NCBI GenBank assembly: GCA_903922735.1
Contig: CAIXUZ010000078.1
Span: forward strand, 1-64,000
Length of the DNA stretch: 64,000 bases
From: an uncultured Verrucomicrobia subdivision 3 bacterium
GTDB lineage: Bacteria > Verrucomicrobiota > Verrucomicrobiia > Limisphaerales > UBA11358
Reading direction: 5' to 3'
Shown here: in pieces, positions 23,712 through 58,002 of the stretch
Layout of the letters: each line of letters opens with the position of its first letter
How positions within the stretch are numbered: the first letter of the stretch is position 1
Notes under the pieces: generated by a model
The model's input: the letters and a program-made list of their open reading frames with translations, nothing else
Told to the model about the DNA's origin: nothing
Databases searched by the model: none
Program-made: the position numbers and the translations under genes

Positions 23712-23793
23712 AAAATGTGCCTAACTATCACAAATCGAATAATTGACCGTCAAATTATCATTCCAAATCGTATTCCGCCGATAAAAATTTGAA

Positions 23794-26506: not shown

Positions 26507-27415
26507 ATGAACAAGACCCCACTGCTCGAAGAACTCTCCCGCCGTCCGCTCGTTTGCGACGGCGCGATGGGCACGCAACTCATGGCTCGCGGCCTCGCCA
26601 GCGGCGCGTGCGGCATGACCTGGAACCTCGACCGCCCCGGCGATGTCGGCGGCATCCACCTCGCCTATCGCAACGCCGGCTGCGACCTCATCACCACCAA
26701 TTCCTTTGGCGGCACGCGGTTCGCACTTGCGCTGCATGGCTTGGAAGCTCGCGTGACGGAATTAAACCGAGCCGCCGCCCGCGTGGCGCGCGCCGCCGGC
26801 GGCGACAACAGCTGGGTACTCGGCGACGTCGGCCCATTCGGCGATTTCCTCGAACCCGTTGGCGATGTCACGGCAGATGAATTGCGCGCGGCGTTTCAGG
26901 CGCAAATCGCCGCCCTGCTCGAAGGCGGCGCGGACGCCATCCTCGTGGAAACCATGAGCGATCCCGCCGAGGCCATCGTCGGAGTCGAGGCGGCGAAAGC
27001 TTGCAACCCCAAAATTCCAGTCATCGTCACCTACTCCTTTCAGAAAACTGGCGGTGAATTCCGCACGATGATGGGCACGAGCGCCGCCGACGCCATGCGC
27101 CGCGCCATCGCCGCCGGTGCCGACATTGTCGGCACCAATTGCGGCACGGATTTGAGCTTGGACGATTATGTAAAACTGGCCGGACAGCTCGTCGCCGCCG
27201 CAGGCAAAACGCCGGTAATCGTGCAGCCCAACGCTGGATCACCGCACATGGAAAACGGCGAAACGATCTACAAAGCCACACCGGAAGAAATGGCCGCCAC
27301 GGCCACGCGCCTGCTCGCCGCTGGAGTGTGCATCATCGGCGGCTGCTGTGGAACCACGCCCGCCCTGCTCGCCGCCATGAGTCGCGCGGTCAAGAACATC
27401 AAAACGCCAGTCTAG
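26507..27415 (+). CDS. Homocysteine S-methyltransferase family protein
   Basis: A 302-residue BHMT/MetH-N-type barrel that methylates homocysteine (or a similar thiol) to methionine. It has the N-terminal DGAMGTQLMARGL motif, DLITTNSFGGT, and the three zinc cysteines: C212 in GTNCGT, then C280 and C281 in GGCCGTTP. The methyl donor cannot be read. The adjacent corrinoid protein and UroD methyltransferases make a methyl-corrinoid donor plausible, and betaine or S-methylmethionine are alternatives. It is convergent with the AraC gene, sharing the stop palindrome CTAG at 27412-27415. Confidence 0.9.
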   Translation: MNKTPLLEELSRRPLVCDGAMGTQLMARGLASGACGMTWNLDRPGDVGGIHLAYRNAGCDLITTNSFGGTRFALALHGLEARVTELNRAAARVARAAGGDNSWVLGDVGPFGDFLEPVGDVTADELRAAFQAQIAALLEGGADAILVETMSDPAEAIVGVEAAKACNPKIPVIVTYSFQKTGGEFRTMMGTSAADAMRRAIAAGADIVGTNCGTDLSLDDYVKLAGQLVAAAGKTPVIVQPNAGSPHMENGETIYKATPEEMAATATRLLAAGVCIIGGCCGTTPALLAAMSRAVKNIKTPV

Positions 27416-33696: not shown

Positions 33697-33698
33697 TT

Positions 33699-41114: not shown

Positions 41115-41456
41115 GGCGTGATGGCAGACAACTCGATAATAGCGGTAGAGGTGCCTGCCAAGGAATCAGACGGGTGTGCTAAATAAGCAATTCAAGTGAG
41201 CGGCCAGTGGAGCCCGTTCTCTGTCTGGGTGATGTCCGAGTCCTAGCGGACGGCCACCTTGGCGAACGAGCACACCTTCCGGTGGGGCACCATGGCGGAA
41301 AGTTTTACCTTTATCTTCTTCGCGTCCTTCGCGCGAATCAGGTCACTGCCCGATGAGGTGGTCGGGTTTTGATTTGAGACTCGTCACCTCGTCTCCTACG
41401 GGAGAGTCCGCTCCATCTGAATACGGGAAGAAGTTAGAGCCGGTGTCTTCCCGGCG
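41115..41456. other. Non-coding region downstream of the minisatellite
   Basis: 342 bp between the array and the end of the AraC gene. It includes CTTCGCGTCCTTCGCG-type short repeats (near 41318) but no gene, RNA or clear terminator that I can recognise. Confidence 0.5.
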
Positions 41457-42185
41457 TCATGCCCCGTTCGGGCGGGCGGCGGAGCGGAATTGTCCGGGCG
41501 TCATCCCTTTCACATCCTGAAACACGCGGGTGAAATAGCTCTGGTCGCAGAAGCCGCAGGTGTCGGATATTTCCGCCAGCGGCTGCCGGGTGCCGCCCAG
41601 TAATTCACAGGCCAGGTCCACCCGGCATTGCCGCAACAATTCCGTGAACGACCGCCCGGTGCGCTCCTTGAGCAGCCGCGAGAAATGGCTGGGGGAAATC
41701 CCCGCATGGCGGGCGACCTCGTCCCGCGAGATGTCGCAGTGCAGATTCCGGCGCATGAAATCGAGCGCCTTGCCGATGAGCAGCGGCGGGGTGAAATCCT
41801 CCTGCTGCTCGATGGTGGACATGACGTGTTCCAGGATTTTGCGCAGCCACGCGGCGAGCTGTTCGTCGTCGTCGATCTCCGCCAGCTCCGTCAGGAAGCG
41901 GAAGTTCATGCCCAGCACCTCCGATTGCACCGCGCCCGCCTCGACGGCCGCGCGGGAGATCATCACGACGAGTTCGAGCAGCAGGCCTTTCAGCAAATCG
42001 CTCCGCTCCTCGCCCGCGCTGTAGATGTGGACGAGGACGTGATTGATGATCCGCCGCGATTCGCCGCGGTCGCCGCGCCGGATGGCGGCCAGCAGCATGG
42101 GCTCCTGCAACAGGTAGAGTTCGCGAATCCGGTCGTAGGGCCGGTGTTCCAGCAGCGGCACGGCGGGAAAGTCGTTCGGGTTCAT
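41457..42185 (-). CDS. AraC-family regulator linked to corrinoid genes
   Basis: A 242-residue regulator with a C-terminal AraC DNA-binding domain (HTH 1 around RDEVARHAGISPSHFSRLLKE, HTH 2 around LAEISDTCGFCDQSYFTRVFQ). The N-terminal half (ELYLLQEPMLLAAIRRGDRGESRRIINHVLVHIYSAGEE) is the helical input region seen in PocR-like regulators beside corrinoid-dependent pathways, without a cupin. It ends the apparent operon and overlaps the RACo gene end by 4 bp, so it is probably autoregulated with the demethylation genes. Confidence 0.88.
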   Translation of the reverse strand: MNPNDFPAVPLLEHRPYDRIRELYLLQEPMLLAAIRRGDRGESRRIINHVLVHIYSAGEERSDLLKGLLLELVVMISRAAVEAGAVQSEVLGMNFRFLTELAEIDDDEQLAAWLRKILEHVMSTIEQQEDFTPPLLIGKALDFMRRNLHCDISRDEVARHAGISPSHFSRLLKERTGRSFTELLRQCRVDLACELLGGTRQPLAEISDTCGFCDQSYFTRVFQDVKGMTPGQFRSAARPNGA

Positions 42186-43822
42186 GGCAGCATCAGGTGC
42201 TCGATGTAACGGTCTTCAAACCCGTCGGCCAGGTTCAGTTCGACGACCGCCACCTGGCGCCGCAAATTCTCCATTTCCGCGAGCGTGGTCCGGTCCACCA
42301 AGGCCAGCAGCGCGCCGGCCAGCGCGGTATTGCCCACCACCCGCACCTGCTCCTCGCGAAAGCCCGGCAGCAAGCCGATGGCGATGGCGTGCGGCACATT
42401 CAGGTGCATCCCGAAGCCGCCGGCGAGATACACGCGGCCCAGATCCGCGGCCTGGATGCCCGCGGTCTCGAGCAAAGTTTCGATGCCGGCCCCGATCGCC
42501 GCCTTGGCCTGCAGCAGCAGGGCGACATCCACCTCGCTGATGCGCAATTCACTGCTGCCGCCAGCCGCCACGAGACGCAACGCCTGTTCGTTATCCGCCG
42601 TGAAACGATTTTCGGCCGGCAGGTTTTCCCAGGCGGATTTCTCGAACCGGCCGGAATATCCCAGCAGACCGGCACTGCGCGCCGTCGCCAGAAAATCCAC
42701 ATAGGCCGAACCGCAAATGCCATTCGCCCGCGCCAGGGGAATCCGGCCGATGACTTCGGCCTCGAGCGAGAACGGATTCAGCTTCAAATCCAGATCGCTG
42801 ACCGCGCCGTCGCGCGCCCGCGTGCCGCAGCGCAAGCCGCAGCCTTCAAACGCCGGACCGGCGGCGGTGGCGCAGGCGGTAAGTTTGCCGCCGCTCTGCA
42901 AAACGATTTCGCCGTTGGTGCCGACATCCACCAGCAGGCTCGGCGCCGGATCAAAGGCCATGCCGGTGGCATACACGCCGGCGGTGATGTCCGCCCCGAT
43001 ATAGGCGCCGATGCCCGGCAGCAATTGCACGGGCGTCGCCGGCGCCAGGCCGTCGGCGATCAAGGCCATTTGCCCGGCGGTAAAACTCATTCCCTCGATA
43101 AAGCGCGGCGTGAACGGGGCGATGCCCAGCGGGGTCGGATCTTCGCCGACGAGCAGATGCAACATGGTGGTATTGCCGGCGATCGTGCCCCCGGCAATGC
43201 GCTCCAAGGAGCGCCCGGCCCGCGCGCAGGCGTTCACCAGCAATGGCTGGATGGTCTCCATCACGATGGCCCGCTGCAGCGCGATGAGATTCTCCGGCCG
43301 GCGCGCGGCTTCGATGCGGGTGATGACATTGTCGCCAAAGCGGATCTGCTCGTTGAACGCCCCGGCGCGCGACAGCACTTCGCCGGTGACCAGATCCACC
43401 AGCAGCACCACCACGGTGGTGGTGCCGACATCCACGGCAAACGCCGTGTCGCGCCCGCCGGCCACCGGGGCAAACAGCGGCTGATGCGCACAGGGTATCG
43501 CAATCTCAAACGTCTCGCCGACCTGCGGCTGGTGCTCAATGCGCGAGCGGGCGGGAATGAAGATCGCGGCCGCGGCACCGGCTTTGGCCCGGCAGGCTTG
43601 AACCGTGGCGGGCGCGGTGACGATGGCACCGTTGACGGTGAGTTCGCCGCTGCGCAATTCCACTTCGCAGCCGCGACACAGCCCGCGCTGGCCGCAGCGC
43701 GTGTTCAGCGGCAGGCCGTGCGCCGCCAGCGCGTCCGCCAGCGAACGTCCGCCGGACGGCGCGGGAAGCTCCCGGCGCTCACCGGAGGCGAGTTCGATTT
43801 GAAGCTGCGGCGGGCGGCTCAT
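42182..43822 (-). CDS. RACo-type corrinoid activation protein (ASKHA domain, DUF4445)
   Basis: Reductive activator of corrinoid proteins: uses ATP to return oxidised Co(II) corrinoid to the active Co(I) state. The 546-residue protein has an N-terminal [2Fe-2S] ferredoxin domain with C43, C49, C52 and C77 (TRCGQRGLCRGCEVEL and VQACRAK), a linker, and an ASKHA ATPase domain opening with AFAVDVGTTTVVVLLVD and continuing through NTTMLHLLVGEDP, VDVGTNGEIVLQ and YLAGGFGMHLN. I chose the ATG at 43822, which overlaps the preceding DUF1638 gene by 4 bp. Its presence shows that corrinoid methyl transfer operates in this cell. Confidence 0.94.
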   Translation of the reverse strand: MSRPPQLQIELASGERRELPAPSGGRSLADALAAHGLPLNTRCGQRGLCRGCEVELRSGELTVNGAIVTAPATVQACRAKAGAAAAIFIPARSRIEHQPQVGETFEIAIPCAHQPLFAPVAGGRDTAFAVDVGTTTVVVLLVDLVTGEVLSRAGAFNEQIRFGDNVITRIEAARRPENLIALQRAIVMETIQPLLVNACARAGRSLERIAGGTIAGNTTMLHLLVGEDPTPLGIAPFTPRFIEGMSFTAGQMALIADGLAPATPVQLLPGIGAYIGADITAGVYATGMAFDPAPSLLVDVGTNGEIVLQSGGKLTACATAAGPAFEGCGLRCGTRARDGAVSDLDLKLNPFSLEAEVIGRIPLARANGICGSAYVDFLATARSAGLLGYSGRFEKSAWENLPAENRFTADNEQALRLVAAGGSSELRISEVDVALLLQAKAAIGAGIETLLETAGIQAADLGRVYLAGGFGMHLNVPHAIAIGLLPGFREEQVRVVGNTALAGALLALVDRTTLAEMENLRRQVAVVELNLADGFEDRYIEHLMLP

Positions 43823-44592
43823 TGTTTCACCGCCGGCTTGGCGCACAGAATTTTCTCATCGGCGGAGTGGGCGAGTGCTTCACCCGGCTCGATGATTTGA
43901 AAGCGTTCTGAATCCCAATGGCCCCAAAGCAAATCCCGCAGCAGCCTGGGATCGCCCGCGAGCCGCTCGAATTTCCAGCCCAGCCAGTCCGCGCAGCGCC
44001 GGGCATAATCCGCCTCCGGTTCGGCGTCATCCGTGCCGAGGTCAAGATAAGTGACGGTGTCATGCATCGCCCATAGTTCCCGCTCCGTCTCGATCAGCAT
44101 TTCCACGTCATCCGGCGCATATTTTTTGGCAAGTTCGGACTGTAGCGCCGCCAGTCTTTCCGGACCGGGCACGCGCCGCTCACGATTCCAGCCCGGCGAA
44201 TAGTAAATGCAGGTCGGGCAGCGGCGTTGATGCGCGGCGTAGGCTTCTTTGCTGCCCATGAAGACGGTGATGCAATCATGCGCCCGCGGAATGACCAACC
44301 GGTGGCGCAAGGGACGCAAGCCCGCCGTGCCAAGACCGCACAGCCCGTAGGCCAGGACCACGGCATCAAGGTCAGCACGCGCCTCGACGGATTGGATTTC
44401 GGCTTGCAACTTCTCACGGAGCTGATCGGACCGGTCATGCAGGCCGACCTCGAAGAAGCGGGTTTCCAAAATATGGCTGGCTCCCGCCGCAAGCAGCGCG
44501 ATCTCCTTTTCAAACACGCGGCAGGCCAGCAGCGCAATGCGCGGCGGCGGCGGTGCTCCGCTGGCAGGTGTCGGATCGGAAGCCATTTTCAT
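43819..44592 (-). CDS. DUF1638 domain-containing protein
   Basis: A 257-residue cytoplasmic protein of the DUF1638 family, whose members recur beside corrinoid methyltransferase and RACo genes; their role is not established. Cysteines are prominent: LLACRVFEKE, YGLCGLG, HDCITVFMGS and CPTCIYYSPGW, consistent with metal or cofactor binding. I chose the ATG at 44592, which forms an ATGA overlap with the stop of the TIM-barrel gene before it. It overlaps RACo by 4 bp, so these three genes are translationally coupled. Confidence 0.9.
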   Translation of the reverse strand: MKMASDPTPASGAPPPPRIALLACRVFEKEIALLAAGASHILETRFFEVGLHDRSDQLREKLQAEIQSVEARADLDAVVLAYGLCGLGTAGLRPLRHRLVIPRAHDCITVFMGSKEAYAAHQRRCPTCIYYSPGWNRERRVPGPERLAALQSELAKKYAPDDVEMLIETERELWAMHDTVTYLDLGTDDAEPEADYARRCADWLGWKFERLAGDPRLLRDLLWGHWDSERFQIIEPGEALAHSADEKILCAKPAVKQ

Positions 44593-45410
44593 CCACGCAA
44601 GCCGACCAACTTCATCAGCTTGTCCGTCTGGGTGTAGGCTTCCGTCACCCACTCGACAATCCGCTTCGGATCGGGCGAATATTCCAGCTCGATGGAAATG
44701 ACGCCGTTGATTTTCAATTCCTTGATGGCTTGGAGGTACGGCTCAAACTTCACAATCCCGCGTCCGGGCGGAAGATCGCCGTGCACTTTCCCGTCGCAGT
44801 CGCTGAGGTGAACGTGAATCGCCCTGCCCTTGAGCTTGGCCAGATCCAGCGGACTGGTGTCGGCCAGAACCAGATGGCTGACATCAATGTTGGCGCGCAC
44901 GCGCGGGTGTTTGCAGTCCTTCACGAACCGCACCATCTCGTCCACATTGTGAAGCAGGCTCAGGCGGAACGGTTCCAGTTCCAGCGCGATGTCCACATTC
45001 TTTTTCCCGGCATAATCGCCGATTTCGCGGCAGGTTTCCACGGCCCACTGCCATTGCGCGGCCGGCGGAATGACTTCGCGCTGCCAGAGATATTCGCCCA
45101 GCACGAGCAGGATATTTTTCGCGCCAAACTCGGCGGCGAGGTCCACGAACCGCTTGCAGCGCGCGACGTGAAAGGCGCGGACAGGATCATTGAAATCAAT
45201 CAAGCCGGTGGCGACCACCGGCAAAGAAATGATGGGGAGCCGCGCCCGGTCGCAAGTGCGGGCGATGAGCAGCTTCTCCTTTTTGGAAATCGTTATCGCT
45301 TCGGTGAAGATATCCACGCAATCGAAACCGATGCGGGCGATATGTTTAAGGCCGGTGGCGGTATCCACGCCCGCCTGGCCAAACGCGCTGTTGATGATTC
45401 CTAGTTTCAT
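44589..45410 (-). CDS. Sugar phosphate isomerase/epimerase-type TIM barrel
   Basis: A 273-residue AP-endonuclease-2-fold barrel (IolE/xylose-isomerase-like). Likely metal ligands are in ALELEPFRLS, ANIDVSHLVL, IHVHLSD and SIELEYS. These enzymes isomerise or epimerise sugars, or act on keto-inositols and 3-keto-sugars. The adjacent Gfo/Idh oxidoreductase is a classic partner for 3-keto-sugar chemistry. The substrate is unknown. It sits 24 bp after the Gfo/Idh gene and overlaps DUF1638 by 4 bp. Confidence 0.88.
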   Translation of the reverse strand: MKLGIINSAFGQAGVDTATGLKHIARIGFDCVDIFTEAITISKKEKLLIARTCDRARLPIISLPVVATGLIDFNDPVRAFHVARCKRFVDLAAEFGAKNILLVLGEYLWQREVIPPAAQWQWAVETCREIGDYAGKKNVDIALELEPFRLSLLHNVDEMVRFVKDCKHPRVRANIDVSHLVLADTSPLDLAKLKGRAIHVHLSDCDGKVHGDLPPGRGIVKFEPYLQAIKELKINGVISIELEYSPDPKRIVEWVTEAYTQTDKLMKLVGLRG

Positions 45411-45434
45411 AACATGTTTTTACGGAATTTTTGT

Positions 45435-46517
45435 TCAGGCGGCAATTTCAGCGGGGTTCACCACCCGTTTTTGCCGGGCGCTCAAATAGGCCGCATCGAC
45501 GAGCGCCATGGTTTTCAAATTATCGCGCCCGCTGATGGCGGGTTCTTTGCCGGTTTCCAGCGCAATGAGCAGTTGTCCCATCGTGCCGCCAAAAGCATCG
45601 GGAAACCAGCTCTCGCTCCACTTCGGCTCATGAAATTCTTTATCGCCTTTGGCCGCGTAACGAATGGTAGAAACGCTCGTGTAAGGATCTTTGCACCAGC
45701 CAAGGTCGCCCATGGCGAGTCCGTTCAATCCTTCAATCCGCCATTTGATGCTGATGTCAGCGGGACAACCTTCCTTGGCCGGCCCGGTCCAGGTGTCATC
45801 AATCGCCACGCAGCGCAAGCCTCCAGCGTATTCAAGGATGTAGGCGCAGATGCCGTCGGTGTGCGGAAATCGGGTGCGCGGATCCGGACGCGTGGTGCAA
45901 AAGATCCCTTCCGGATCGCCAAACCAAAAACGGAAGCAATCCAGATGATGGATGGACATGACCCGCAACGTGACCCAGCCTAGTTCCGCCTGCCACGGCG
46001 CCCAGTGAGGAATGCCGCGCATGTCAATCGTCGCCAGCACCGGCTCACCAATGGTGCCGTTGGTGAGCAGCGTCTTGGCGGCGCGCACGGATTGGTCGTA
46101 GCGCATGTTCTGATTCACGGCAAGCGTGATGCCGGCCTGCTCGCAACCCTGGACGGCTTCGAGCGCTTCGGCGTAATTCATGCCCAGAGGCTTCTGCGCA
46201 AGGATACCTTTGACCGTTTTGCGTTGGCAGGCGGCTTTGATGAGCGCGAGTTGCGCGTTCGGAGGCACGGCGATGTCCAGCACTTCGATGGTGGGATCGT
46301 CCAGCAATTGCTCGCAAGTGTCGCAAACCTTGGGAATGGAATGAAGCGCAGCCACCTTGGCGGCATGGTCACGCGACCGCGACGCGATGGCGACCGGATT
46401 GAAGCCGGCCTTGCGATAGCTCACCAAATGGCAATCGTTCACGATGAAACCGCTGCCCAAAACACCGATGCGAAAATCCCTTTTCGCCGGCAGCGGTGGA
46501 TTAATATTCAGTTCCAT
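45435..46517 (-). CDS. Gfo/Idh/MocA-family oxidoreductase
   Basis: A 360-residue NAD(P)-dependent sugar or polyol dehydrogenase. The N-terminal Rossmann fold begins FRIGVLGSGFIVNDCHL. The usual EKP catalytic motif appears as LAQKPLGMNY, a common variant. The C-terminal half is the alpha/beta substrate domain. I chose the ATG at 46517 because it places the Rossmann strand near residue 13. It lacks a signal, so it is cytoplasmic, unlike the paralogue at 48721-50085. It probably oxidises a sugar, perhaps a methylated one given its UroD and P450 neighbours. Confidence 0.9.
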   Translation of the reverse strand: MELNINPPLPAKRDFRIGVLGSGFIVNDCHLVSYRKAGFNPVAIASRSRDHAAKVAALHSIPKVCDTCEQLLDDPTIEVLDIAVPPNAQLALIKAACQRKTVKGILAQKPLGMNYAEALEAVQGCEQAGITLAVNQNMRYDQSVRAAKTLLTNGTIGEPVLATIDMRGIPHWAPWQAELGWVTLRVMSIHHLDCFRFWFGDPEGIFCTTRPDPRTRFPHTDGICAYILEYAGGLRCVAIDDTWTGPAKEGCPADISIKWRIEGLNGLAMGDLGWCKDPYTSVSTIRYAAKGDKEFHEPKWSESWFPDAFGGTMGQLLIALETGKEPAISGRDNLKTMALVDAAYLSARQKRVVNPAEIAA

Positions 46518-46559
46518 GGGATGAATAAAAACGTACCAGCTGGCGGTCAAAAGCGCAGG

Positions 46560-47558
46560 TCAAATTTTGGCAAAGCACCGCACGTTTTCTGGCGGTGAAT
46601 GCCGGGGCAATTCGCACCCGGCACCGGCAATCCACGCGGCTCCGGCATCAGCGCGGCACTTCGCCAGTTCGCGGCGCACGTCATCCACGGTGCCATTCTT
46701 GACCACATTCACGGTGTGAATATTGCCGAGCAAAACCTGACGATCACCCATTGCAGTGCGGGCGGCACGCAGGTCAACCAGTGTGTCCAAGTCCACAATC
46801 TCGCAGCCGAGTTTGGCCAGGGCGTCGGCCAGCTGGCTGGTGCGGCCGCAGATGTGCAACCGCACTTTGCCGCCGGCGGCGTGGATGCCAGCAATGAGTT
46901 TCTGCTCGTGCGGGAAAACAAATTCGTCGTATAGCTCGCGCCCGACGAGCGAGGCGGCGGCATCGCCCACGCCGATGATATCCGCGCCGGCCTCGATCTG
47001 CGCGGTGGCGAATTTCAGCGCGTTGTCCACGGTGAAAGCCGCAAGCGCGTGGACGAAATCCGCGTCGTCGTAGTAATCGGTCATCAGCGTGTTGATGCCG
47101 CGCAGGTCGGCACTTTCGGCGCACGGGCCTTCGACCCAGCCCTCAATCAGATGCGTGTCGCCCATTTGCTGGCGCAGCAAACGAACAGCCTCGATGCGGT
47201 TGGCCATGCGGCTGCCCGCGCGATGCGGATCGGGAACCCGCAGCGAACTCAAGGTGGCGGGGTCGGCCAGCAATGCCTTTTCCTCAATGATTGCCGGCGG
47301 GCCATCCGGCGGATAAAAAATCGCCGCGCCCAAATCCGCCGCCTCACAGCATGGGTCAGAAATGACAGAAACGTGGTCGAAGCCAAATTGTTGCGCGGCG
47401 GCGATTTGACCAGCGACCTGGATTTCGGCGCGCGTCGCGTAATCGTGGTATTTCGCGCCGACGAGGTCGGCGGCCCACATCATGGTGATGGGCATGGCAG
47501 GCGGACGATCCACCGGCTTGCCGGCGATCAGATTCAGGACCCGTTCTCTTGAGTTCAT
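46560..47558 (-). CDS. UroD-family methyltransferase (MtaA/MtbA-like), copy 4
   Basis: A 332-residue protein of the MtaA/MtbA branch. It starts MNSRERVLNLIAGKPVDRPPAMPIT, with DPCCEAADLGA, the zinc ligands in RLHICGRTSQL and the C-terminal cysteine motif AGCELPRHSPPEN, which closely matches methylcobamide:acceptor methyltransferases. It has the role of moving methyl groups on or off a corrinoid protein. It lies between P450 (15 bp gap) and Gfo/Idh (42 bp gap) on the same strand. No corrinoid protein is in this operon, so it would rely on one encoded elsewhere, such as at 24848. Confidence 0.88.
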   Translation of the reverse strand: MNSRERVLNLIAGKPVDRPPAMPITMMWAADLVGAKYHDYATRAEIQVAGQIAAAQQFGFDHVSVISDPCCEAADLGAAIFYPPDGPPAIIEEKALLADPATLSSLRVPDPHRAGSRMANRIEAVRLLRQQMGDTHLIEGWVEGPCAESADLRGINTLMTDYYDDADFVHALAAFTVDNALKFATAQIEAGADIIGVGDAAASLVGRELYDEFVFPHEQKLIAGIHAAGGKVRLHICGRTSQLADALAKLGCEIVDLDTLVDLRAARTAMGDRQVLLGNIHTVNVVKNGTVDDVRRELAKCRADAGAAWIAGAGCELPRHSPPENVRCFAKI

Positions 47559-47573
47559 AAATTTATCCAAAAA

Positions 47574-48716
47574 TCAGAGTGACGATAGTTTGACGATCAA
47601 TGATTCGTAACCCATCACGCGCTGATAGCTCGCCTCATTTTCAACTCGTTCCTTCGCCCCCAGCACGGTGATAGCAGCGACCCGCTCGGTGCATTTCTGG
47701 AGCAAGGTGCGGAGAATCAGCCGCGCATGGGGAGCGCCCAGACAAAGGTGGGCGCCAAAGCCGAAAGCAAGATGCGGATTCGGTTTTCGAGCGAGGCGCA
47801 CTTCATCCGGCGCTTCAAATACGGTTTCATCCCGGTTGGCCGACGCCCAACCCAGCGATACCCGGCCCCCGGGTTTCACTTTGATGCCGTGAACATCGGT
47901 CGCCACCGGGCAAACGCGACCGATATGGGTGAGCGGCATAAAGACGCGGAAGAATTCCTCGCTGGCAAGGACGATGCGCGACGGATCCTGACGCAGAAAC
48001 TCCAGCGCCTGAGGATTTTTGCCGAGATAGGCGACCACTGATGAGAGACAGTGAATGATCGTATCGCGTCCACCGGCAAACGTGAGGTTGGCAAACCCCA
48101 TCATCTCCTCACGCGTAAGCGGTCGACCGCGGAAAGTTGCCTTGGTCAGCGCGCTGAAAAAATCTTCACCCGGATTCGCCAGCGCCTGATCGAACCGCTG
48201 CTGGAGGTAAGTTTCCAGCGCCGCGCCTTTTTTCTGTCCGTCGCCGCCATCATGGAAGACATGAATGCCCCACCCGACCCACGTTTCCGCCTCCGCTTCG
48301 GGCACGTTGAGCAGGTGAGTCAGCGCGCGCGACTGCAAGGGAAGAGCAAATTCGCGAACCACTTCGATGGATTCCCGGCCCAGCGCATCCTGCAACATAC
48401 GCTCAATGAGCGCCTCCACCTTGACCACAACGGCCGGAATTTTGGCGCGCAAGAAAAACGGCTCGACGATTTCCCGATATTCGGTGTGTTCAGGCGGATT
48501 GGTTTCGAGGGGCAATTGCCGCATCGTGCGGACATCTTCCTCCGACGGGATGGGCACACGGAATGGTGCATCCGAACTGAATGTCTTCCAATCCTTCGCC
48601 GCGCGGCGCACCGCTTCATGGCGCAAAATCATCGGCACGCTCTCGTTCTGGAAATCGCATTTGAGAATGCCAGCCGCCTGGCGCCAGTCGCGGAAGGGGT
48701 CGGGAGCGCGTTCCAT
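47574..48716 (-). CDS. Cytochrome P450
   Basis: A 380-residue soluble bacterial class I-type P450. The I-helix oxygen-binding motif is AGGRDT (214-219), ExxR is EFFR (254-257), and the heme loop FGFGAHLCLGAPH carries the axial cysteine C325. The start at 48716 is 4 bp from the end of the preceding gene. No ferredoxin or ferredoxin reductase is adjacent. Known sugar and lignin O-demethylases (CYP236, CYP255, CYP199) belong to this general type, but this sequence cannot be placed in one of them by eye. Its place beside a methyltransferase makes O-demethylation an attractive but unproven role. Confidence 0.93.
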   Translation of the reverse strand: MERAPDPFRDWRQAAGILKCDFQNESVPMILRHEAVRRAAKDWKTFSSDAPFRVPIPSEEDVRTMRQLPLETNPPEHTEYREIVEPFFLRAKIPAVVVKVEALIERMLQDALGRESIEVVREFALPLQSRALTHLLNVPEAEAETWVGWGIHVFHDGGDGQKKGAALETYLQQRFDQALANPGEDFFSALTKATFRGRPLTREEMMGFANLTFAGGRDTIIHCLSSVVAYLGKNPQALEFLRQDPSRIVLASEEFFRVFMPLTHIGRVCPVATDVHGIKVKPGGRVSLGWASANRDETVFEAPDEVRLARKPNPHLAFGFGAHLCLGAPHARLILRTLLQKCTERVAAITVLGAKERVENEASYQRVMGYESLIVKLSSL

Positions 48717-48720
48717 GGGA

Positions 48721-50085
48721 TTACAGCGTCCAGCCTTTGCGATACTCGGCGCGGACATATTGATTGGCCTCGGGCAAGTTGGTGACTTTCATATTGGCAG
48801 CATCCCACTCGATGCGGGAATCCACCCGGGTGGCGATGTTTCCGAGGAGGCAGATTTCCGTCAGCGGCGCGGAATAACCAAAGTGCGCGCCCGGTTGCGT
48901 TCCCGTTTTGCAGGCGTTGACCCAGTCCATTTCGTGCGTGCCTTTGATGCGCGGCAACATTTTCGGCGGCCGTTTGTATTCCCGCATTTTGCTTTCGGGA
49001 AACAGCCGCGGGCTGCCGCCATAAACACCACAGGCAATCTGACCTTTGTCGCCTTTGAAAATAACCCCGCCACCGTTTTCGCCCAGCTCCGATCCTTCCT
49101 CGGCTTCCGGCGGACGCGGGGGACGCGTGCCTTCATACCAGGTCAATTTCACCGGGGGAAGATTTCCGCGCGCGGGAAAACGGAAGGTGATGATGGCCGA
49201 CAATGGATGAATTTCCCTGGTCATCCCGCAGGAGGTGGCTTCGATGCTGGTGGGCGCACCGAGCTTGAGTGCGGTGACAATGGGATCGAATGAGTGCGCG
49301 CCCCGGTCACCCATCATCCCATTGCCGAAGTCCCACCAGCAGCGCCAAACACCGGGATGATAAGCCGGATGGTAGGGTCTTTCCGGCGCTGGTCCGAGCC
49401 ACAAGTCCCAGTTCAACTTGTCTGGCAGCGGTTGAAAGTCTTTGGGACGTCCACCGTCACCACCCCATTTTGAACTCCAATAGGCGTGACCCCACGGATA
49501 ATAGGAAAGACTGCACCAGGCATCCACTTCGCGTACTTCGCCAATAGCGCCCGCCCAAATCCATTCGCAAATGAGCCGAAGCCCCTCGCCGCTGTGACCC
49601 TGGATGCCCATTTGCGTGGCGACCTTTGCTTCGCTCGCGGCCTTAGCCAGCATCCGTGCTTCATAAATATCGTGGCAGAGCGGTTTCTGGCAATAGACGT
49701 GTTTGCCGGCGCGAATCGCCGCCATGGAAATGACCGCGTGTGTATGATCCGGGGTGGCGATCATGACGGCGTCTATGTCCTTCTGCTGCTCCAGCATTTC
49801 GCGGTAGTCGGTCCAGACTTTCGCCTTGGGATATTTGGCGATGGTTTTGGCGGCGTAGTTAATATCCACATCACAAAGCGCAACGATGTTTTCAGATTCC
49901 AGATTGAGCAGATTATTGGCCCCCATCCCGCCGATGCCGATGCCGGCGATGTTCAGTTTTTCGCTCGGCGGTTTTTCCCCGGAACCGGCCACGAGATGGC
50001 GCGGGACAAGGAGAAAAGACGAGGCCATGGCGGTGGTGGCGACAAACTGGCGGCGGCTGATCAGGCGGTTTGAATTGCTATTCAT
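48721..50085 (-). CDS. Tat-exported Gfo/Idh/MocA-family oxidoreductase
   Basis: A 454-residue protein with a twin-arginine signal (ISRRQFVATTAMASSFLLVP, about residues 7-26), then a Rossmann fold (LNIAGIGIGGMGANNL) and the substrate domain. The EKP position reads YCQKPLCHDIYEA. Such periplasmic Gfo/Idh proteins with bound cofactor are abundant in Verrucomicrobiota and Planctomycetota. The ATG at 50085 is chosen because it places the RR motif correctly. It seems to be the first gene of the operon that runs on to P450, UroD and RACo, and is divergent from an AraC gene. Confidence 0.93.
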   Translation of the reverse strand: MNSNSNRLISRRQFVATTAMASSFLLVPRHLVAGSGEKPPSEKLNIAGIGIGGMGANNLLNLESENIVALCDVDINYAAKTIAKYPKAKVWTDYREMLEQQKDIDAVMIATPDHTHAVISMAAIRAGKHVYCQKPLCHDIYEARMLAKAASEAKVATQMGIQGHSGEGLRLICEWIWAGAIGEVREVDAWCSLSYYPWGHAYWSSKWGGDGGRPKDFQPLPDKLNWDLWLGPAPERPYHPAYHPGVWRCWWDFGNGMMGDRGAHSFDPIVTALKLGAPTSIEATSCGMTREIHPLSAIITFRFPARGNLPPVKLTWYEGTRPPRPPEAEEGSELGENGGGVIFKGDKGQIACGVYGGSPRLFPESKMREYKRPPKMLPRIKGTHEMDWVNACKTGTQPGAHFGYSAPLTEICLLGNIATRVDSRIEWDAANMKVTNLPEANQYVRAEYRKGWTL

Positions 50086-50221
50086 AGTTAAATGGATGGT
50101 GAAACGGAATTGTTTAGCATAATGGATTTTTCCTGTCTCCGCCTGCACGGCTAAAGACTGCCAATGTATTGACACGAACAGCCTTGCTGGAATGGGCCGA
50201 CATCATTAGCGTTTGAGGCGA

Positions 50222-51097
50222 ATGCAACTTCCGGCCAAAGCTGAGTTTGAATTGATCCCCAAAAGCGAGTTGCATTCCTTTGCCGTAAGGGAATTCACTT
50301 TGCCCGGTTTCAAAGTTCCTTGGCATTTCCATCCGGAATGCGAGCTGACACTCATTCTCCAGAGCCGTGGCCGGCGGTTTGTCGGCGACAGCCTTGAGGA
50401 ATTCGCCCCCGGCGACCTGGTGCTCATCGGATCGAACCTGCCGCATTACTGGCGCAACCCGGAACCGGAAAAAGCCACCCGAAAACAATCAAAAGCCATC
50501 GTCGTGCAGTTCCGGGAGGAATGCTTCGGCGTGGATTTCCTCGGCCTGCCAGAGCTGACCGGCATTCGGAACCTCCTCCTGAACGCCCGGCGCGGCCTCC
50601 AGTTCGCCGGAAAAACCCGCGACGCCGTGGCGACAATCATGTCCCGCCTACCCCACCGCAAGGGTTTCGACCGGCTCCTTGCGTTGCTAAACATCTTCAA
50701 ACTTCTGCAGGAATCGCCGGAAGTTCGCGTCCTGTCCAGCCCGGGTTTTTCGCCGTTGCTGGATGAATTTGCCAGTGAACGCATCAACCGCGCCTACAAA
50801 TTCATCTTTGAACATTTCGCAGCCCCCATCCGGCATGAGGAGATTGCGCGGGGCGCGGGCATGAGCCTTTCGGCGTTCGGTCATTACTTCAAGCGCGTCA
50901 CCGGACGCACGCTGACGGATTTTATCAACGACGTCCGGGTCGGCCACGCCTCGCGGCTGCTCATCGAGACGGACCAGCCTGTTTCCAAAATCGCCTACGC
51001 CAGCGGCTTTGAAAGCCTTTCCAATTTCAATCATCGCTTCCGCAAATTAACCGGCATCAACCCCAAGGAATACCGGCACAAACACCATGCCGGATGA
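50222..51097 (+). CDS. AraC-family regulator with cupin sensor
   Basis: A 291-residue regulator. An N-terminal cupin sugar-sensing domain (WHFHPECELTLILQSRGRRFVGD, FAPGDLVLIGSNLPHYW) is followed by a C-terminal AraC domain (HEEIARGAGMSLSAFGHYFKRVTGRTL; VSKIAYASGFESLSNFNHRFRKLTGINP). It is divergent from the Tat Gfo/Idh gene with about 136 bp between starts, so it is the most likely controller of the P450-UroD operon. A TTG at 50213 is an alternative start. Confidence 0.92.
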   Translation: MQLPAKAEFELIPKSELHSFAVREFTLPGFKVPWHFHPECELTLILQSRGRRFVGDSLEEFAPGDLVLIGSNLPHYWRNPEPEKATRKQSKAIVVQFREECFGVDFLGLPELTGIRNLLLNARRGLQFAGKTRDAVATIMSRLPHRKGFDRLLALLNIFKLLQESPEVRVLSSPGFSPLLDEFASERINRAYKFIFEHFAAPIRHEEIARGAGMSLSAFGHYFKRVTGRTLTDFINDVRVGHASRLLIETDQPVSKIAYASGFESLSNFNHRFRKLTGINPKEYRHKHHAG

Positions 51098-51136
51098 AAC
51101 CCCCGTCCGCCGGCTCGCCAAATATTGACCAGCATT

Positions 51137-52558
51137 TCAGTTCTTGCGCGCCCAGCTTTGTTCGATTTCTTCCAGTGACCGCCCCTTGGTTTCTGGCACC
51201 AACCGCCAGACCACGAGCAGCAGCACGGCGCAAAACACCGCATAGATGTAGAACGGAAAGGCGTGATCGAAATGCGCAACGAACCAGGAACCTTTCGCGT
51301 CCATCATCGGAAAGGTCTGCGTGACGACATAATCCGCCGTCCACAGAAAGAAGGTCGCCAAGCCGAGGGCTCGACCGCGCACTGCCGTGGGGAATATCTC
51401 CGACAGAATCACCCAAGTCACCGGTCCCACCGACAGGCCGAAGCAGCCGATGTAAAGCAGGATGAAAAACAGCATCCATCCGCTGGCGGTTGCCGGATCC
51501 GTCAGGGTTTGAGCCATGATGCCCATGGCCAAAAGACTGATGCCCATGCCCGCCGCGCCGACAAACATCAGCGGCTTGCGTCCCCATTTGTCCACCGTGG
51601 CAATGGCGATGACCGTGAATAGCACACCCGCGCCGTTGATGATGAGTTGCTGCAGCAAACCGGCATCCACGCCCGTCGAAGAACTCATGGTTTTGAAAAT
51701 GGTAGCTCCAAAATACATGAAGACGTTGATGCCGGTGACTTGCTGGAGGACTGCCAGCAGCACGCCGATGAGCAGCGGCAACCGGAGCTTGGCGGAAAAT
51801 AGTTCACCCCAGGTGCCCCGCTCCTGTGAAAGCGCGGCCTTGATGCTATCGAATTCGGCACCGGCAAATTCCGCGCCACCGACTTTTTCCAGAATCCGCT
51901 GCGCATCGGCTTCACGTTTTTTCTCGATCAACCAGCGCGGGCTTTCGGGAATTGGAATCAGCAGCAAGCCAAAGAGGATGGCGGGCACAATGCCCGTGCC
52001 AAACATCCAGCGCCAGCCGGTTTCAATCAACCAGGCCTGATCACCGCGCCCAGCGATGAAATAATTGATGAACGACGTCAGCGCGATGCCGCCGACGATG
52101 GCGATCTGGTTCACCGCCACCATCCGTCCACGGATGTTTGCCGGTGTGATTTCCGCGATATACATCGGCGTGGAGATGGATGCGATGCCGATGCCAATGC
52201 CCCCGATAATACGGAAAACGATAAACGTCCAGATATCATTCGGCATGGCGGTGCCAATGGCGGAAACGAGAAACATCATTGCTGCCAGAAACATGGCCGG
52301 CCGACGGCCAAAACGATCCGAGATTGACCCGACCATCAGCACGCCCGCCGCACAACCTGCGAGCACGCAGCCTGAAGCCCAGCCTTTCATGAAGTCACTG
52401 AGGTTGAAGCAAGCGGTCAGCGGCTCAATGGCTCCGGAAATAACGCCGGTGTCGTAGCCAAATAATAATCCGCCGAGCGTGGCGACGAGGCAGATGGGCA
52501 GCAAATATGAGAAGTTGACCTTCGCAATCCTGCCCGCAGACGATATTTCTGTTTTCAT
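51137..52558 (-). CDS. Sugar porter, major facilitator superfamily (XylE/GalP type)
   Basis: A 473-residue proton-coupled sugar importer with 12 membrane helices and the family signatures GGLLFGYDTGVISGA (helix 1), RFGRRP (loop 2-3), PESPRWLIEKK (end of helix 6) and PETKGRSLEEIEQ (C-terminus). It is the last gene of the xylanase operon, 36 bp after the GH120 gene, so xylose or arabinose is a plausible substrate. Confidence 0.93.
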   Translation of the reverse strand: MKTEISSAGRIAKVNFSYLLPICLVATLGGLLFGYDTGVISGAIEPLTACFNLSDFMKGWASGCVLAGCAAGVLMVGSISDRFGRRPAMFLAAMMFLVSAIGTAMPNDIWTFIVFRIIGGIGIGIASISTPMYIAEITPANIRGRMVAVNQIAIVGGIALTSFINYFIAGRGDQAWLIETGWRWMFGTGIVPAILFGLLLIPIPESPRWLIEKKREADAQRILEKVGGAEFAGAEFDSIKAALSQERGTWGELFSAKLRLPLLIGVLLAVLQQVTGINVFMYFGATIFKTMSSSTGVDAGLLQQLIINGAGVLFTVIAIATVDKWGRKPLMFVGAAGMGISLLAMGIMAQTLTDPATASGWMLFFILLYIGCFGLSVGPVTWVILSEIFPTAVRGRALGLATFFLWTADYVVTQTFPMMDAKGSWFVAHFDHAFPFYIYAVFCAVLLLVVWRLVPETKGRSLEEIEQSWARKN

Positions 52559-52594: not shown

Positions 52595-54916
52595 TCACCA
52601 GACTTTTAGTTTAAGATTGCCCGGGCCGGGATTTTCAAATGGTCCGGATGTGGGGGTTGTCTTGCTCCGGGCCTTGCCGAAATAATCCGAATCGATTTTC
52701 AGCGGCGAGCCATCGGCATTTTCATAAGACAGGCCGGCAATCTTCGACTTGTTCAACAAAGCGGTTGTGACGGGCCGGGTGGAAACTTGTTTCAATTCCG
52801 GACCTGAGTTGAACTGGATAAAAACCTGTCCGCCTCCCTCCATGATTTTCAACTTCGGATCAACATTCGACAGCGCTAATGAATTGGAATCATTGGCATA
52901 GGACTTCGCACTATTGAGATACACATTGCCGCCGGTTTGCAGAGGCAACTCACGTTTGTCATACACCCACAAGCCATAGCCAATGTCTGACTGGGGTTTA
53001 TTGGCAGTTGGTTTGACAGTGTTGGTGGTGAAAGTTGAAGATTCGCCGCCACCTATGAAAAGGTTGTTGTAGAAACGATTGTCGCCACCCCTGATGCTCA
53101 GCAAGCCGGCGATCTTCGTCAAGTGCGCGGGATGAAACGGCGTCTCGCGGCGCGGCTCAGGCCGGCTGATGATTTTGCCAGCCATCAGATTGTGCACGTA
53201 GGCACCGCCTTCGGACCAGTCCATCAGGCTGACGGGGGACAGAAATAAATTATTATCCATTAAAAACGGGCCGTGGTTAACCTCAACAAACAGATCCTGG
53301 TCGTTATCGTGAAAAAGATTTCGCGAGACGCGCGTGCCCTGCGCCATCCAGTCCAGCCAGAGCCCGCGGCAAGTCAGATAGATGTGGTTGCGACTGATTT
53401 CGGTGTCAATGGCGGCATGGAATTTGATGCCGGCCATTTCCGCGCCGGTAAAAAGCCGCCGGACGTGAATGTCGTGGATGATGTTCCCGGTGACCGTGCT
53501 GAACGAACAACCCAGGCTGCCGACGATGCCCGCTTGTTCGCAGTGTGAAACGGTGTTGTTGCGAACGATATGGTGGCCGATGTTTTCCTTCGTCCACGCG
53601 ATGGCATGGGCATGGGCGCGCTCGATGGTCTTGACGTAGCCTTCGGCACTGTCAGCGGAGGTGTTGTCGAACTGGTCGCCATGTTTCCCGAGCGAGATGC
53701 CGGAACAGATGGAATGACTGACGATGTTGCTCTCAATGATCCAGCCCTTGCTCCAATGCGTGCCGATGAGGCCGACTTGCTCGGCGGTTGGCGGTGCCCA
53801 CGGCGTGGCGGCGTGGCGCATCGTGAAACCACGGACGGTGATGAAGTTGCGCCCCAGCTGGTCGGGGTAGAACACGGTTTGGCGCACGTTAATTTCAACG
53901 AGCTGTTCATTCGGATTCATGCCCTTGAACTGCGCCCAGATCGTGGTGTTTGTCGAGTCCACTTGTGCAAACCACAACCGGGGATTCAAGGCTGATGGAT
54001 TATGGCCCTTAAACACGAGACAAAGGGTCTTCACTCCGCTGACCGGCTTGATGGTGGTCTTGTGCGAAACCCACGCTTGCCAGCCACCGGTGTTCGCAAC
54101 GTAACACGTTCCCAGAAGATCCCCATCCGGCGTATCCAGCCGCAGTTCGATGATTCCGCCTTCCGAGGCTGACGCCGCGCGAATCTCCACCTGTCTGACC
54201 CCCTGCTTGAAGTCCATCTGCTCGTAGCGAACCCAATCGCCGGACATGATCCAGCCGAGACACTCTCCGCCCTCCGAACACGGTGCGTTGGTCGTCCCGC
54301 TCCTGACTGCAAAACTCGTCGCTGGAGTGCGCGGAGTATTCCCAGCGCTGCTGTCCAGCCGTAACCAGGCCACGTTTAGCAGAACAGGCTTTCCCCCTTT
54401 GGTAAGCCACGCCGGACTGCCCGGCATTAGCACTTCTTCCAGTTTGGCCGCCTCGGTCAGCCACTCGCCATTGAGATAGACTGCGCCGGTATGATGTTCG
54501 CGGCCTTTCGCGTTGAACCAGTCGCCGCGAATGAGGTCGCTGTAGGGATTAAAGCCGCCGAACAACGAGTTCGGCAGCGTAACCTTCCAGACATCGCCCT
54601 GAACCTTCGTCCAATTCTTGACGACCTCCGACCCCTTGATCTCCACCTTCTCGCCCGGCGCGGCCCGATAGACGATGCGTTTCTTGTCGGACGTGCCGCC
54701 GCGCGGCGGATTGATGCGCTCGCGATAGATGCCTTCATGCACGGTGATTACATCGCCCGGCTGCGCGATTCTGGCTGCGGCAGAAATGGTCTTGAAGGGG
54801 TTTGCCAATGAGCCGGTGTTGCTGTCGTTTCCGTTTATAGCGACAGAAAACTCTGCGGCTTGAATTGCGGTTGCAGCGAGCGCCAGCGCACCCGCGATAA
54901 TTCGGTGTAAGTTCAT
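52595..54916 (-). CDS. GH120 beta-xylosidase-type protein with inserted CBM6-like domain
   Basis: A secreted right-handed parallel beta-helix enzyme, 773 residues, with signal peptide MNLHRIIAGALALAATAIQA. Matches to GH120 XylC run throughout: FKTISAAARIAQPGDVITVH, HAATPWAPPTAEQ, GLIGTHWSKGWIIE, GLWLDWMAQGTRVSRNLF and DLFVEVNHGPFL. The GH120 catalytic pair is present: Asp522 (in LWLDW) and Glu545 (in FVEV), 23 residues apart as in XylC. Inserted at about residues 205-305 is a carbohydrate-binding module of the CBM6/35 type (GDWVRYEQMDF, VEIRAAS, GGWQAWVSHKTTI) that the classical enzyme lacks. It should release xylose from xylo-oligosaccharides. Confidence 0.88.
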   Translation of the reverse strand: MNLHRIIAGALALAATAIQAAEFSVAINGNDSNTGSLANPFKTISAAARIAQPGDVITVHEGIYRERINPPRGGTSDKKRIVYRAAPGEKVEIKGSEVVKNWTKVQGDVWKVTLPNSLFGGFNPYSDLIRGDWFNAKGREHHTGAVYLNGEWLTEAAKLEEVLMPGSPAWLTKGGKPVLLNVAWLRLDSSAGNTPRTPATSFAVRSGTTNAPCSEGGECLGWIMSGDWVRYEQMDFKQGVRQVEIRAASASEGGIIELRLDTPDGDLLGTCYVANTGGWQAWVSHKTTIKPVSGVKTLCLVFKGHNPSALNPRLWFAQVDSTNTTIWAQFKGMNPNEQLVEINVRQTVFYPDQLGRNFITVRGFTMRHAATPWAPPTAEQVGLIGTHWSKGWIIESNIVSHSICSGISLGKHGDQFDNTSADSAEGYVKTIERAHAHAIAWTKENIGHHIVRNNTVSHCEQAGIVGSLGCSFSTVTGNIIHDIHVRRLFTGAEMAGIKFHAAIDTEISRNHIYLTCRGLWLDWMAQGTRVSRNLFHDNDQDLFVEVNHGPFLMDNNLFLSPVSLMDWSEGGAYVHNLMAGKIISRPEPRRETPFHPAHLTKIAGLLSIRGGDNRFYNNLFIGGGESSTFTTNTVKPTANKPQSDIGYGLWVYDKRELPLQTGGNVYLNSAKSYANDSNSLALSNVDPKLKIMEGGGQVFIQFNSGPELKQVSTRPVTTALLNKSKIAGLSYENADGSPLKIDSDYFGKARSKTTPTSGPFENPGPGNLKLKVW

Positions 54917-54918
54917 AT

Positions 54919-56130
54919 TCAACTTTTCAATTGGAGGGGATAATTCGGCAGCTTGCCGTGGTGAATCACATCCGTCAACCGTCGGTGCCAGGCGATGTCG
55001 CGCCACATGCCCTTGAACTGCGGGCCGCAGAAATTACTCGTGGCCAGCGCCGCCCAGCAACCCGTCGCCGAGGCTGTGCGGACGCCGTGTTCGGTCAGGT
55101 CTTTCACCCAGTCCCAATTCAGCAGCGGCCAGTCTTTGAAAACCACCACGCCCCAGCATTCGGTGGTGATCAGCGGCTTGCCGCTGGCGCGCGACCATTT
55201 AGCGAGAAGGTTGATGCCATATTCCTGTCGCGATTGCCAATGGGCTGGGTTGGACCGATAGAGCGTCTCGGCTTTGGCGACAATCTTTTCGTAACCGACC
55301 GCATCGAACAGTTCCCACTTGTAGCCAACTTGCTGATAGAAATCGGAGAAGTTCGTCATCCACACGTGCGGCTCCAAAAAATCGAGGAAAGCCGCATTCG
55401 GTTCGCGCAACGTTTCAAATTCGCGGTCAATGGAAAAGGTGTAGCTGAACTGCGGATAAGCGCGGCGCGCCACGGCAATCGAGTCGCGCATCCAGCGTTC
55501 GCCCTCGGGCGAATGGCGTTTGAAATCCTTGGGCAAGAATGGCGTCGAGATGTGTGCCGGAAACTCGTTGCAGAAATCCACATACAGAATATGCCGGCGC
55601 AACTCCGGACTGATCGAGTCAAGCGTCACTTTCCAAATCCGCCCCAACTCCTCCGGCGAGGCAATCTTCGCGCAGAGATTTTCCGAAGCATCTTCGCGGA
55701 ACCAAGTTGAAAGGCCGACAAGCAAACCACGTTCCCCGCACTTGGCGATGAATTCATTCAGCGCCGATTGCACTCGAACGCGACAACGCGCCGGACTGCC
55801 CCAGTCGTGCTGGTTCCAGCACGGCAGCAATTCCCATTCGCGCTCGGCACCGGCGGCGATCAGGTGCGGATAGGCATCAATGCGCACGGCGTCGTAGCCG
55901 CGCTCCTTGAGTTCGTCCAATGCCTGGTCCCAATCCTCGTAGCCCGCCCCCGGCCAGCGGCGTTCCAGCCAGGAGAAATCCCACATCGTAATCGCCAGCG
56001 GCCGCGTCAAGCGGTGGCCGGAGAGCGTCACGCCTCTTTGCATGGCAACGTCTCGCGAGGTGATGCAGCCACCCATCAGTGAACCGGCGGCAGCGGCAAG
56101 AGTGGTTTGAAGAAAGCATCTGCGATTCAT
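54919..56130 (-). CDS. GH5-like (cellulase-fold) secreted lipoprotein
   Basis: A 403-residue clan-A-type TIM barrel. The N-terminus MNRRCFLQTTLAAAAGSLMGGC carries both an RR motif and a lipobox cysteine near residue 22, so it is likely a Tat-exported lipoprotein. The catalytic acid/base candidate is the Glu of VDFCNEFP, and the nucleophile candidate is the Glu of PLITTECWG, at the ends of strands 4 and 7 as expected. I cannot assign a numbered subfamily. It lies 2 bp upstream of the GH120 gene and 42 bp downstream of GH10. Xylan or a related hemicellulose backbone is the likely target. Confidence 0.78.
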   Translation of the reverse strand: MNRRCFLQTTLAAAAGSLMGGCITSRDVAMQRGVTLSGHRLTRPLAITMWDFSWLERRWPGAGYEDWDQALDELKERGYDAVRIDAYPHLIAAGAEREWELLPCWNQHDWGSPARCRVRVQSALNEFIAKCGERGLLVGLSTWFREDASENLCAKIASPEELGRIWKVTLDSISPELRRHILYVDFCNEFPAHISTPFLPKDFKRHSPEGERWMRDSIAVARRAYPQFSYTFSIDREFETLREPNAAFLDFLEPHVWMTNFSDFYQQVGYKWELFDAVGYEKIVAKAETLYRSNPAHWQSRQEYGINLLAKWSRASGKPLITTECWGVVVFKDWPLLNWDWVKDLTEHGVRTASATGCWAALATSNFCGPQFKGMWRDIAWHRRLTDVIHHGKLPNYPLQLKS

Positions 56131-56172
56131 CGTATTTATGGTTCAACTTTCAGAAACGCCTGCAAGTCAAAA

Positions 56173-57990: not shown

Positions 57991-58002
57991 GGCTTTTTGA
58001 TA

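Follow-up and report, generated by a model that had tools for sequence, protein, structure and literature searches.

Many polysaccharides of plants and algae carry methyl ethers, and the cytochrome P450 of marine Flavobacteriia is, to our knowledge, the bacterial enzyme that removes them from sugars. Here we present the analysis of a relative of this P450, which is encoded together with proteins of B12-dependent (corrinoid) methyl transfer in a minus-strand operon at positions 41457-50085 of a 64,000-nt stretch (the window; contig CAIXUZ010000078.1) from an uncultured Verrucomicrobia subdivision 3 bacterium. The combination is unusual; each of its parts is of a known kind. Judged by title and the start of the abstract, no openly licensed paper on the pairing of a P450 with a corrinoid module was found among the matches listed. 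We tentatively read the operon as joining two routes of methyl removal, both fed by sugars from a xylan-type locus, in which the methyl group would be either oxidised by the P450 or salvaged by the corrinoid proteins, and give this reading slightly less than an even chance.

In passages of one study the marine P450 is described as converting 6-O-methyl-D-galactose to galactose and formaldehyde with the help of a ferredoxin and a reductase, and the crystal structure of a Zobellia P450 is attributed to Robb 2018 (PMC10033563). The P450 reported here resembles the marine enzyme in sequence (by far the best solved match), in its signature motifs and in its polysaccharide setting; unlike that system, its operon lacks ferredoxin and reductase genes, lies in a xylan-type rather than a porphyran setting and is joined to corrinoid genes. 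The three-component O-demethylases of acetogens also consist of a substrate methyltransferase, a corrinoid protein and a reductive activator, whereas in the source genome no MtrH or PF00809 acceptor enzyme was found, nothing hints at aromatics and oxidase genes are present. The MtaABC system is matched by the presence, in relatives, of MtaB near the corrinoid gene and by a URO-D family protein (UroD) with an MtaA-like fold and zinc motif, but here MtaB is missing, a PF02574 homocysteine methyltransferase is present and UroD stays under the cut-off of TIGR01463. The split methionine synthase of Phaeobacter and the MtgBCDE system of Ruegeria share with the locus a corrinoid protein, a PF02574 protein, a RamA-like/RACo protein and DUF1638; they differ in that URO-D proteins here replace the pterin-binding MtgD, that the organism has its own MetH, and that a P450 and sugar genes stand in the operon.

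Organization of the operon and proposed routes

A check of the open reading frames (ORFs) in the window confirmed eight genes on one strand. According to Pfam they encode, in ascending coordinates, an AraC helix-turn-helix (HTH) protein, RACo (PF14574, PF17651 and Fer2), DUF1638, an AP_endonuc_2 TIM barrel, a Gfo/Idh protein (Gfo2), UroD, the P450 and a further Gfo/Idh protein (Gfo-Tat) (Table 1). With the likely ATG starts, the gaps measure 4 nt (Gfo-Tat/P450), 15 nt (P450/UroD), 42 nt (UroD/Gfo2) and 24 nt (Gfo2/TIM barrel), and three 4-nt overlaps join the TIM barrel to DUF1638, DUF1638 to RACo and RACo to AraC. The layout with short gaps and three overlaps, as well as the gene families, had been named in an earlier annotation of the sequence (the original prediction), and both were borne out.

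Seven of the genes, from P450 to AraC, are kept in order at 86-97% protein identity in a genome of the same genus, G003 (CAIOIC010000080.1, locus L023; genomes and loci of the comparison are given as G and L numbers), and window positions 41475-48722 align with G003 DNA at 88.5%. The genes for Gfo-Tat and the divergent AraC regulator are missing from G003, in which window positions 48723-51160 have no counterpart and a 4-nt overlap joins the sugar transporter gene to that of the P450. Spacing and synteny together suggest a single transcript.

In the first of the two routes, modelled on the nearest characterised relative of the P450, this enzyme would use O2 and a ferredoxin system encoded elsewhere to hydroxylate the O-methyl group of a sugar, giving free sugar and formaldehyde. 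In the second, to which modules and motifs point, the zinc site of UroD would move the methyl group of a methylated substrate to Co(I) of a corrinoid protein encoded at 24848, a homocysteine methyltransferase at 26507 would pass it on to form methionine, and RACo with DUF1638 would re-reduce, at the cost of ATP, cobalt that had slipped to Co(II). PurU could release C1 units as formate, and oxidation or epimerisation of the freed sugar would fall to the Gfo/Idh proteins and the TIM barrel. By analogy, oxidation of a sugar methyl ether is the most likely role of the P450. To judge from modules and motifs, the most likely task of UroD, the corrinoid protein, RACo, DUF1638 and the homocysteine methyltransferase is to salvage methyl groups for methionine; both routes perhaps act on related or the same sugars. 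The context makes a xylan methyl ether such as 4-O-methyl-glucuronate the leading candidate substrate. In the narrowest form of the proposal, UroD would be a new corrinoid methyltransferase that feeds the methyl ether of a sugar or uronic acid (e.g., 4-O-methyl-glucuronate) into methionine, and the operonic P450 would take the same ether, so that the methyl group could be burnt or salvaged; this form we consider unlikely. If both routes do act on sugar ethers, a corrinoid route for alkyl methyl ethers would exist, and the demethylation of 4-O-methyl-glucuronate and similar sugars would become directly testable.

Table 1. Features of the window that bear on the operon, with coordinates, strand and basis of the assignment
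Feature	Coordinates	Strand	Basis
AraC-family regulator	41457..42185	-	PF12833; adjoins RACo in 10/12 relatives
RACo-type corrinoid reactivation protein, 2Fe-2S domain	42182..43822	-	PF14574, PF17651, PF00111
DUF1638 protein, associated with corrinoid reactivation	43819..44592	-	PF07796 and passages of the literature
Xylose-isomerase-like TIM barrel, epimerase-like	44589..45410	-	PF01261
Second Gfo/Idh/MocA oxidoreductase (Gfo2)	45435..46517	-	PF01408
URO-D family methyltransferase-like protein (UroD), HxC...C zinc motif	46560..47558	-	PF01208
Cytochrome P450, relative of carbohydrate-active P450 6g5o/6g5q	47574..48716	-	PF00067; best PDB match E 1.1e-105
Gfo/Idh/MocA oxidoreductase (Gfo-Tat), RR (Tat-like) N-terminus	48721..50085	-	PF01408; BT_2158-like glycoside 3-dehydrogenase family, below cut-off
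Divergent cupin-AraC regulator	50213..51097	+	PF12833, PF07883
Sugar transporter (MFS), upstream of operon	51137..52558	-	PF00083; abuts P450 gene in G003
Xylan-type glycoside hydrolases: GH120+CBM6, cellulase-like, GH10, GH2	52595..60153	-	
mtaB deletion scar	23758..23806	.	vs G003: 1371 bases missing, 31 of last 34 mtaB bases retained
Second URO-D family protein, next to corrinoid gene, probable start 24825	23794..24825	-	PF01208; 343-aa copies in G003, G086
Stand-alone corrinoid protein, MtbC/MtgC-like; putative methyl carrier of the module	24848..25483	-	PF02310, PF02607 (B12-binding_2 + B12-binding); DxHxxG motif
PurU, formyltetrahydrofolate deformylase	25658..26494	+	TIGR00655 370 bits, cut-off 285.95
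Homocysteine S-methyltransferase domain protein, probable acceptor-side enzyme	26507..27415	+	PF02574; NC and GGCC cysteine motifs

The P450, its setting and its partners

Among the sequences of the PDB, 6g5o/6g5q matched the P450 first, with 178 of the 375 aligned residues identical (47.5%); the next-best match had an E-value of 7.5e-41. The motifs FGFGAHLCLG, EFFR and AGGRDT, i.e. the haem-cysteine, ExxR and I-helix motifs of P450s, are present and aligned with the PDB chain. Both entries bear the title 'The structure of a carbohydrate active P450', and we take them to be the 6-O-methyl-D-galactose-demethylating P450 of marine Flavobacteriia, presumably CYP236. Of the structural comparison only the match list and the titles were used, since the predicted model is poor, with a pLDDT of 68 and an rmsd of about 10 against 6g5q. 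The subfamily assignment favours the original prediction, since the closest solved relative is a carbohydrate-active P450.

The xylan locus predicted next to the operon is real, with genes for GH120 with CBM6 (at 52595), GH10 (56173), GH2 (58003) and a sugar transporter. In G009 the corrinoid module also lies beside xylan-type genes, without a P450. GH115, which releases 4-O-methyl-glucuronate from xylan, was found in seven of the eight genomes examined, including the source genome, but not in G086; in G003 it lies on the operon's contig. Regarding the substrates originally proposed, methylated sugars are supported by the relative of the P450, the xylan genes, the transporter and the neighbours of UroD homologues, whereas demethylation of lignin aromatics was rejected: neither the nearest solved relative of the P450 nor the neighbouring genes suggest aromatics.

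Relatives of the sugar-demethylating P450 are widespread in one order of the Verrucomicrobiota, with close relatives (E <= 1e-120) in 82 of the 320 genomes of the order to which the source belongs, and a few genomes, from organisms that have terminal oxidase genes as well, integrate the P450 into a B12-dependent module of methyl transfer. A wider collection yielded 255 stretches at the same threshold; the best 80, of which 77 carried Verrucomicrobiota names, were used for the neighbourhood counts, and seven loci without a called P450 gene were excluded from the neighbour scan, the UroD enrichment and the P450 tree. The scan covered 95 operonic neighbours from 69 loci (one of 96 was omitted for its size, 2256 aa, L062). 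Their most common family was that of the sulfatases (16 of 95), which fits sulfated-polysaccharide loci. A P450 neighbourhood conserved throughout the phylum was considered and rejected, as the neighbourhoods vary and, besides P450 copies and shadow frames, no cluster occurs in more than 13 of the 80 loci. Within 35 genomes of the same genus, a close P450 copy was found in G003 alone. From its distribution the P450 looks like a movable sugar-demethylating gene.

Regarding partners of the P450, UroD profile matches accounted for four of the 271 genes within two positions of it, compared with one of 555 farther out (p 0.04). The UroDs beside P450s do not form one clade (p 3.6e-29, in a tree with long branches from which one duplicate UroD, L212, was omitted), and neither do the P450s beside UroDs (p 0.013, quick tree); on the evidence of both trees, the pairing therefore arose more than once. 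In G129, a member of another family, the genes for AraC, Gfo-Tat, P450 and UroD recur (81-90% identity), the last two being separated by a TIM-barrel gene, and the arrangement gives the impression of a cassette that has moved; the contig stops after UroD, and the RACo piece of G129 is on a different one. In G152 P450 and UroD are both present, on separate contigs. If the juxtaposition were due to chance or transient, with the P450 a movable gene lacking fixed partners, the variable neighbourhoods over 80 loci, the restriction to G003 within the genus and the p-value of only 0.04 would all be accounted for. Such an origin is nevertheless quite improbable in view of the order-conserved seven genes in G003, the recurrence of the four-gene set in G129 and the pairing of the P450 with other UroDs in G086 and L050.

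A single cluster with P450, UroD and RACo was found only in the source genome, G003 and G086, so that the conservation expected in relatives turned out mixed (with the contig of G129 ending after UroD). In G086, the stretch that separates the P450-UroD pair from the RACo module encodes two proteins without Pfam match (417 and 430 aa; L163:10163-12711), adjoining a ketohexokinase-family gene.

The accessory genes have distributions of their own. The Gfo-Tat gene adjoins the P450 gene in G129 (L030) and in L036, and its product reached 493.9 bits against NF058561 (cut-off 750). Homologues of the divergent cupin-AraC regulator (80-84%) lie near the P450 in L030 and L050. Gfo2 is common alone (89 of 320 genomes of the order at E <= 1e-80) and is paired with the TIM barrel, without a P450, in L260, L262, L268 and L277 (4 of the 18 loci of relatives mapped). 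The nearest PDB sequences to the TIM barrel are D-psicose/D-tagatose 3-epimerases (E 2e-10).

The corrinoid module and its probable methyl acceptor

The domains PF17651, PF14574 and PF00111 of RACo score above their cut-offs and are accompanied by a 2Fe-2S motif (CX5CX2C); the protein matches PDB 3zyy at E 3e-82 and the NCBIfam model AcsV at 326 bits, below the cut-off of 800. Close copies (69-100%) occur in 13 of the 320 genomes of the order, including the source genome. In the 12 relatives, RACo stands next to AraC in ten and next to DUF1638 in nine, the misses lying at contig ends except for DUF1638 in G009.

A weak premise of the original prediction was that RACo and DUF1638 mark chemistry sensitive to oxygen. 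According to passages of two studies, a RamA-like protein and DUF1638 play an important part in the methionine synthesis of Phaeobacter grown aerobically (PMC5764234), and the same pair is described for aerobic Ruegeria (PMC12478193); COX1-family proteins were found in 8/8 genomes checked. An exclusively anoxic reading was rejected on these grounds: because aerobes use both proteins, their presence is no proof of anoxic chemistry.

The corrinoid protein at 24848 is called as an ORF of 328 aa that extends into the opposite-strand gene for PurU; since the copies of relatives are mostly of 211 aa, the gene probably covers 24848-25483. In L157, L160, L163 and L165 the RACo/AraC run is contiguous, through the homocysteine methyltransferase, with a corrinoid protein (79-87% to that at 24848), and in L161 AraC and the corrinoid gene are direct neighbours. 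In the window and in G003 the same module is in two pieces, at about 41.5-44.6 and 23.8-27.4 kb of the window, the latter of which further contains genes for PurU, a homocysteine methyltransferase and the second URO-D protein. As relatives keep the module contiguous, the protein at 24848 is very probably the corrinoid partner of the operon. It had been predicted that the operon holds no corrinoid protein and that one is encoded at 24848; the gene is real, and the prediction was incomplete in that this gene belongs to the other half of the same module. The span between the half-modules also holds a fatty-acid-hydroxylase-family protein (32686-33696) beside a URO-D gene, a further possible oxygenase.

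The zinc motif of UroD is of the MtaA type and kept: H239 and C241 are invariant in all 16 aligned rows and C319 in 15 of them, the remaining row being truncated. The predicted model (pLDDT 93.3) has Methanosarcina mazei MtaA (4ay8, 4ay7) as its nearest fold, with a TM-score of up to 0.89. Against TIGR01463 (MtaA/CmuA) UroD scored 161.5 bits, under the cut-off of 235.4, which suggests a protein that works like a member of this family without being filed as one. Among 15 loci of UroD homologues (50-58% identity), there are nine in which the homologue adjoins a gene for a corrinoid protein, a homocysteine methyltransferase, RACo or MtaB; one of these (L247) was fetched because both genes had already been seen there. 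A search of plasmids with UroD returned six records at 23.5-31.1% identity, which were of no use. Further URO-D family proteins of the region are encoded at 22440-23711, 33591-34937 and L172:4370-5512 (besides 23794 and 46560).

No match to MtaB (PF12176) was found in the source genome, whereas in G010, G009, G244, G086 and G003 the MtaB gene lies next to that of the corrinoid protein or at a distance of one gene from it. Since 31 of the final 34 mtaB bases remain at a scar, the comparison with G003 indicates that mtaB was lost in the source genome and not gained in G003. This loss favours the donor side for UroD, which could also perform an MtaA-like transfer from cobalt to a thiol. The MtaB of these relatives, a protein of the methanol:corrinoid methyltransferase family, speaks for two separate C1 sources, with the P450 acting on methoxy-sugars and UroD with the corrinoid protein on another donor, such as methanol or a small methylated compound; the shared operon would reflect a common origin of the two donors in the same plant or algal matter. 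We regard this alternative as possible, if somewhat unlikely, given that MtaB is missing from the source genome with a deletion scar in its place, and that G152, which has an 81% UroD in the module, also yields no MtaB match.

Ten B12-binding matches were obtained in the source genome, eight of them with loci. These eight PF02310 loci comprise the gene at 24848, six genes for radical SAM proteins and one for a MetH that includes an activation domain (PF02965) of its own, so that among the eight, which cover all but the two weakest matches, the protein at 24848 is the only one of the methyl-carrier type besides MetH. MtrH had no match in the source genome, nor was a stand-alone PF00809 methyltetrahydrofolate (methyl-THF):corrinoid methyltransferase found there, its three PF00809 proteins being MetH, DHPS and a DHPS-like protein. 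The source genome is 95.4% complete with 5.6% contamination, which makes these absences strong, not final. Homocysteine is the likely methyl acceptor, as MtaB, MtrH and a stand-alone PF00809 enzyme are all missing and MetH has its own activation domain. Read as a split methionine synthase, the corrinoid, PF02574, RamA-like and DUF1638 proteins would be the parts described in passages on Phaeobacter (PMC5764234), with UroD, whose nearest fold is MtaA, as an accessory or acceptor-side protein and the P450 as an unrelated neighbour. This is improbable, because the source genome encodes a MetH that carries an activation domain itself and yielded no stand-alone pterin-binding methyltransferase, and because MtaB in the modules of relatives suggests donors other than methyl-THF.

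Weighing of the two proposed routes and further features

Several observations weigh against a pairing of oxidation and salvage on sugar ethers. According to Pfam, none of the eight operon genes encodes a ferredoxin or ferredoxin reductase, a Fer2 domain being present in RACo only. P450 and UroD genes that are adjacent or one gene apart are rare (4 of 80 loci, plus the window), and the enrichment of UroD near the P450 reaches only the p-value given above, over 73 loci that are not independent. Eight of the 13 genomes with a close RACo, several of these eight being incomplete, lack the P450, which was accordingly rejected as an indicator of the corrinoid module. Six of the 15 loci of UroD homologues have no corrinoid-system gene next door (in one of them, L239, the UroD frame is uncalled in the map), and MtaA, the nearest fold to UroD, is an acceptor-side enzyme. 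For each of UroD, RACo, the corrinoid protein and Gfo-Tat, the score against the best NCBIfam family stays below the curated cut-off. Finally, we know of no precedent for corrinoid attack on a sugar alkyl ether.

At the end of the window (62082-64000, continuing into L172:2082-4358) a 758-aa fusion of membrane desaturase, Rieske and FAD/NAD reductase parts is encoded, which is oxygenase-like. It is shared with G003 (94%), and G244 has a 60% homologue (L161:7371-9629) one gene away from its RACo module. Two arrays of 21-bp tandem repeats were observed, at 40906-41119 (10.2 copies, 97%) and at 1-121 (5.8 copies, 100%).

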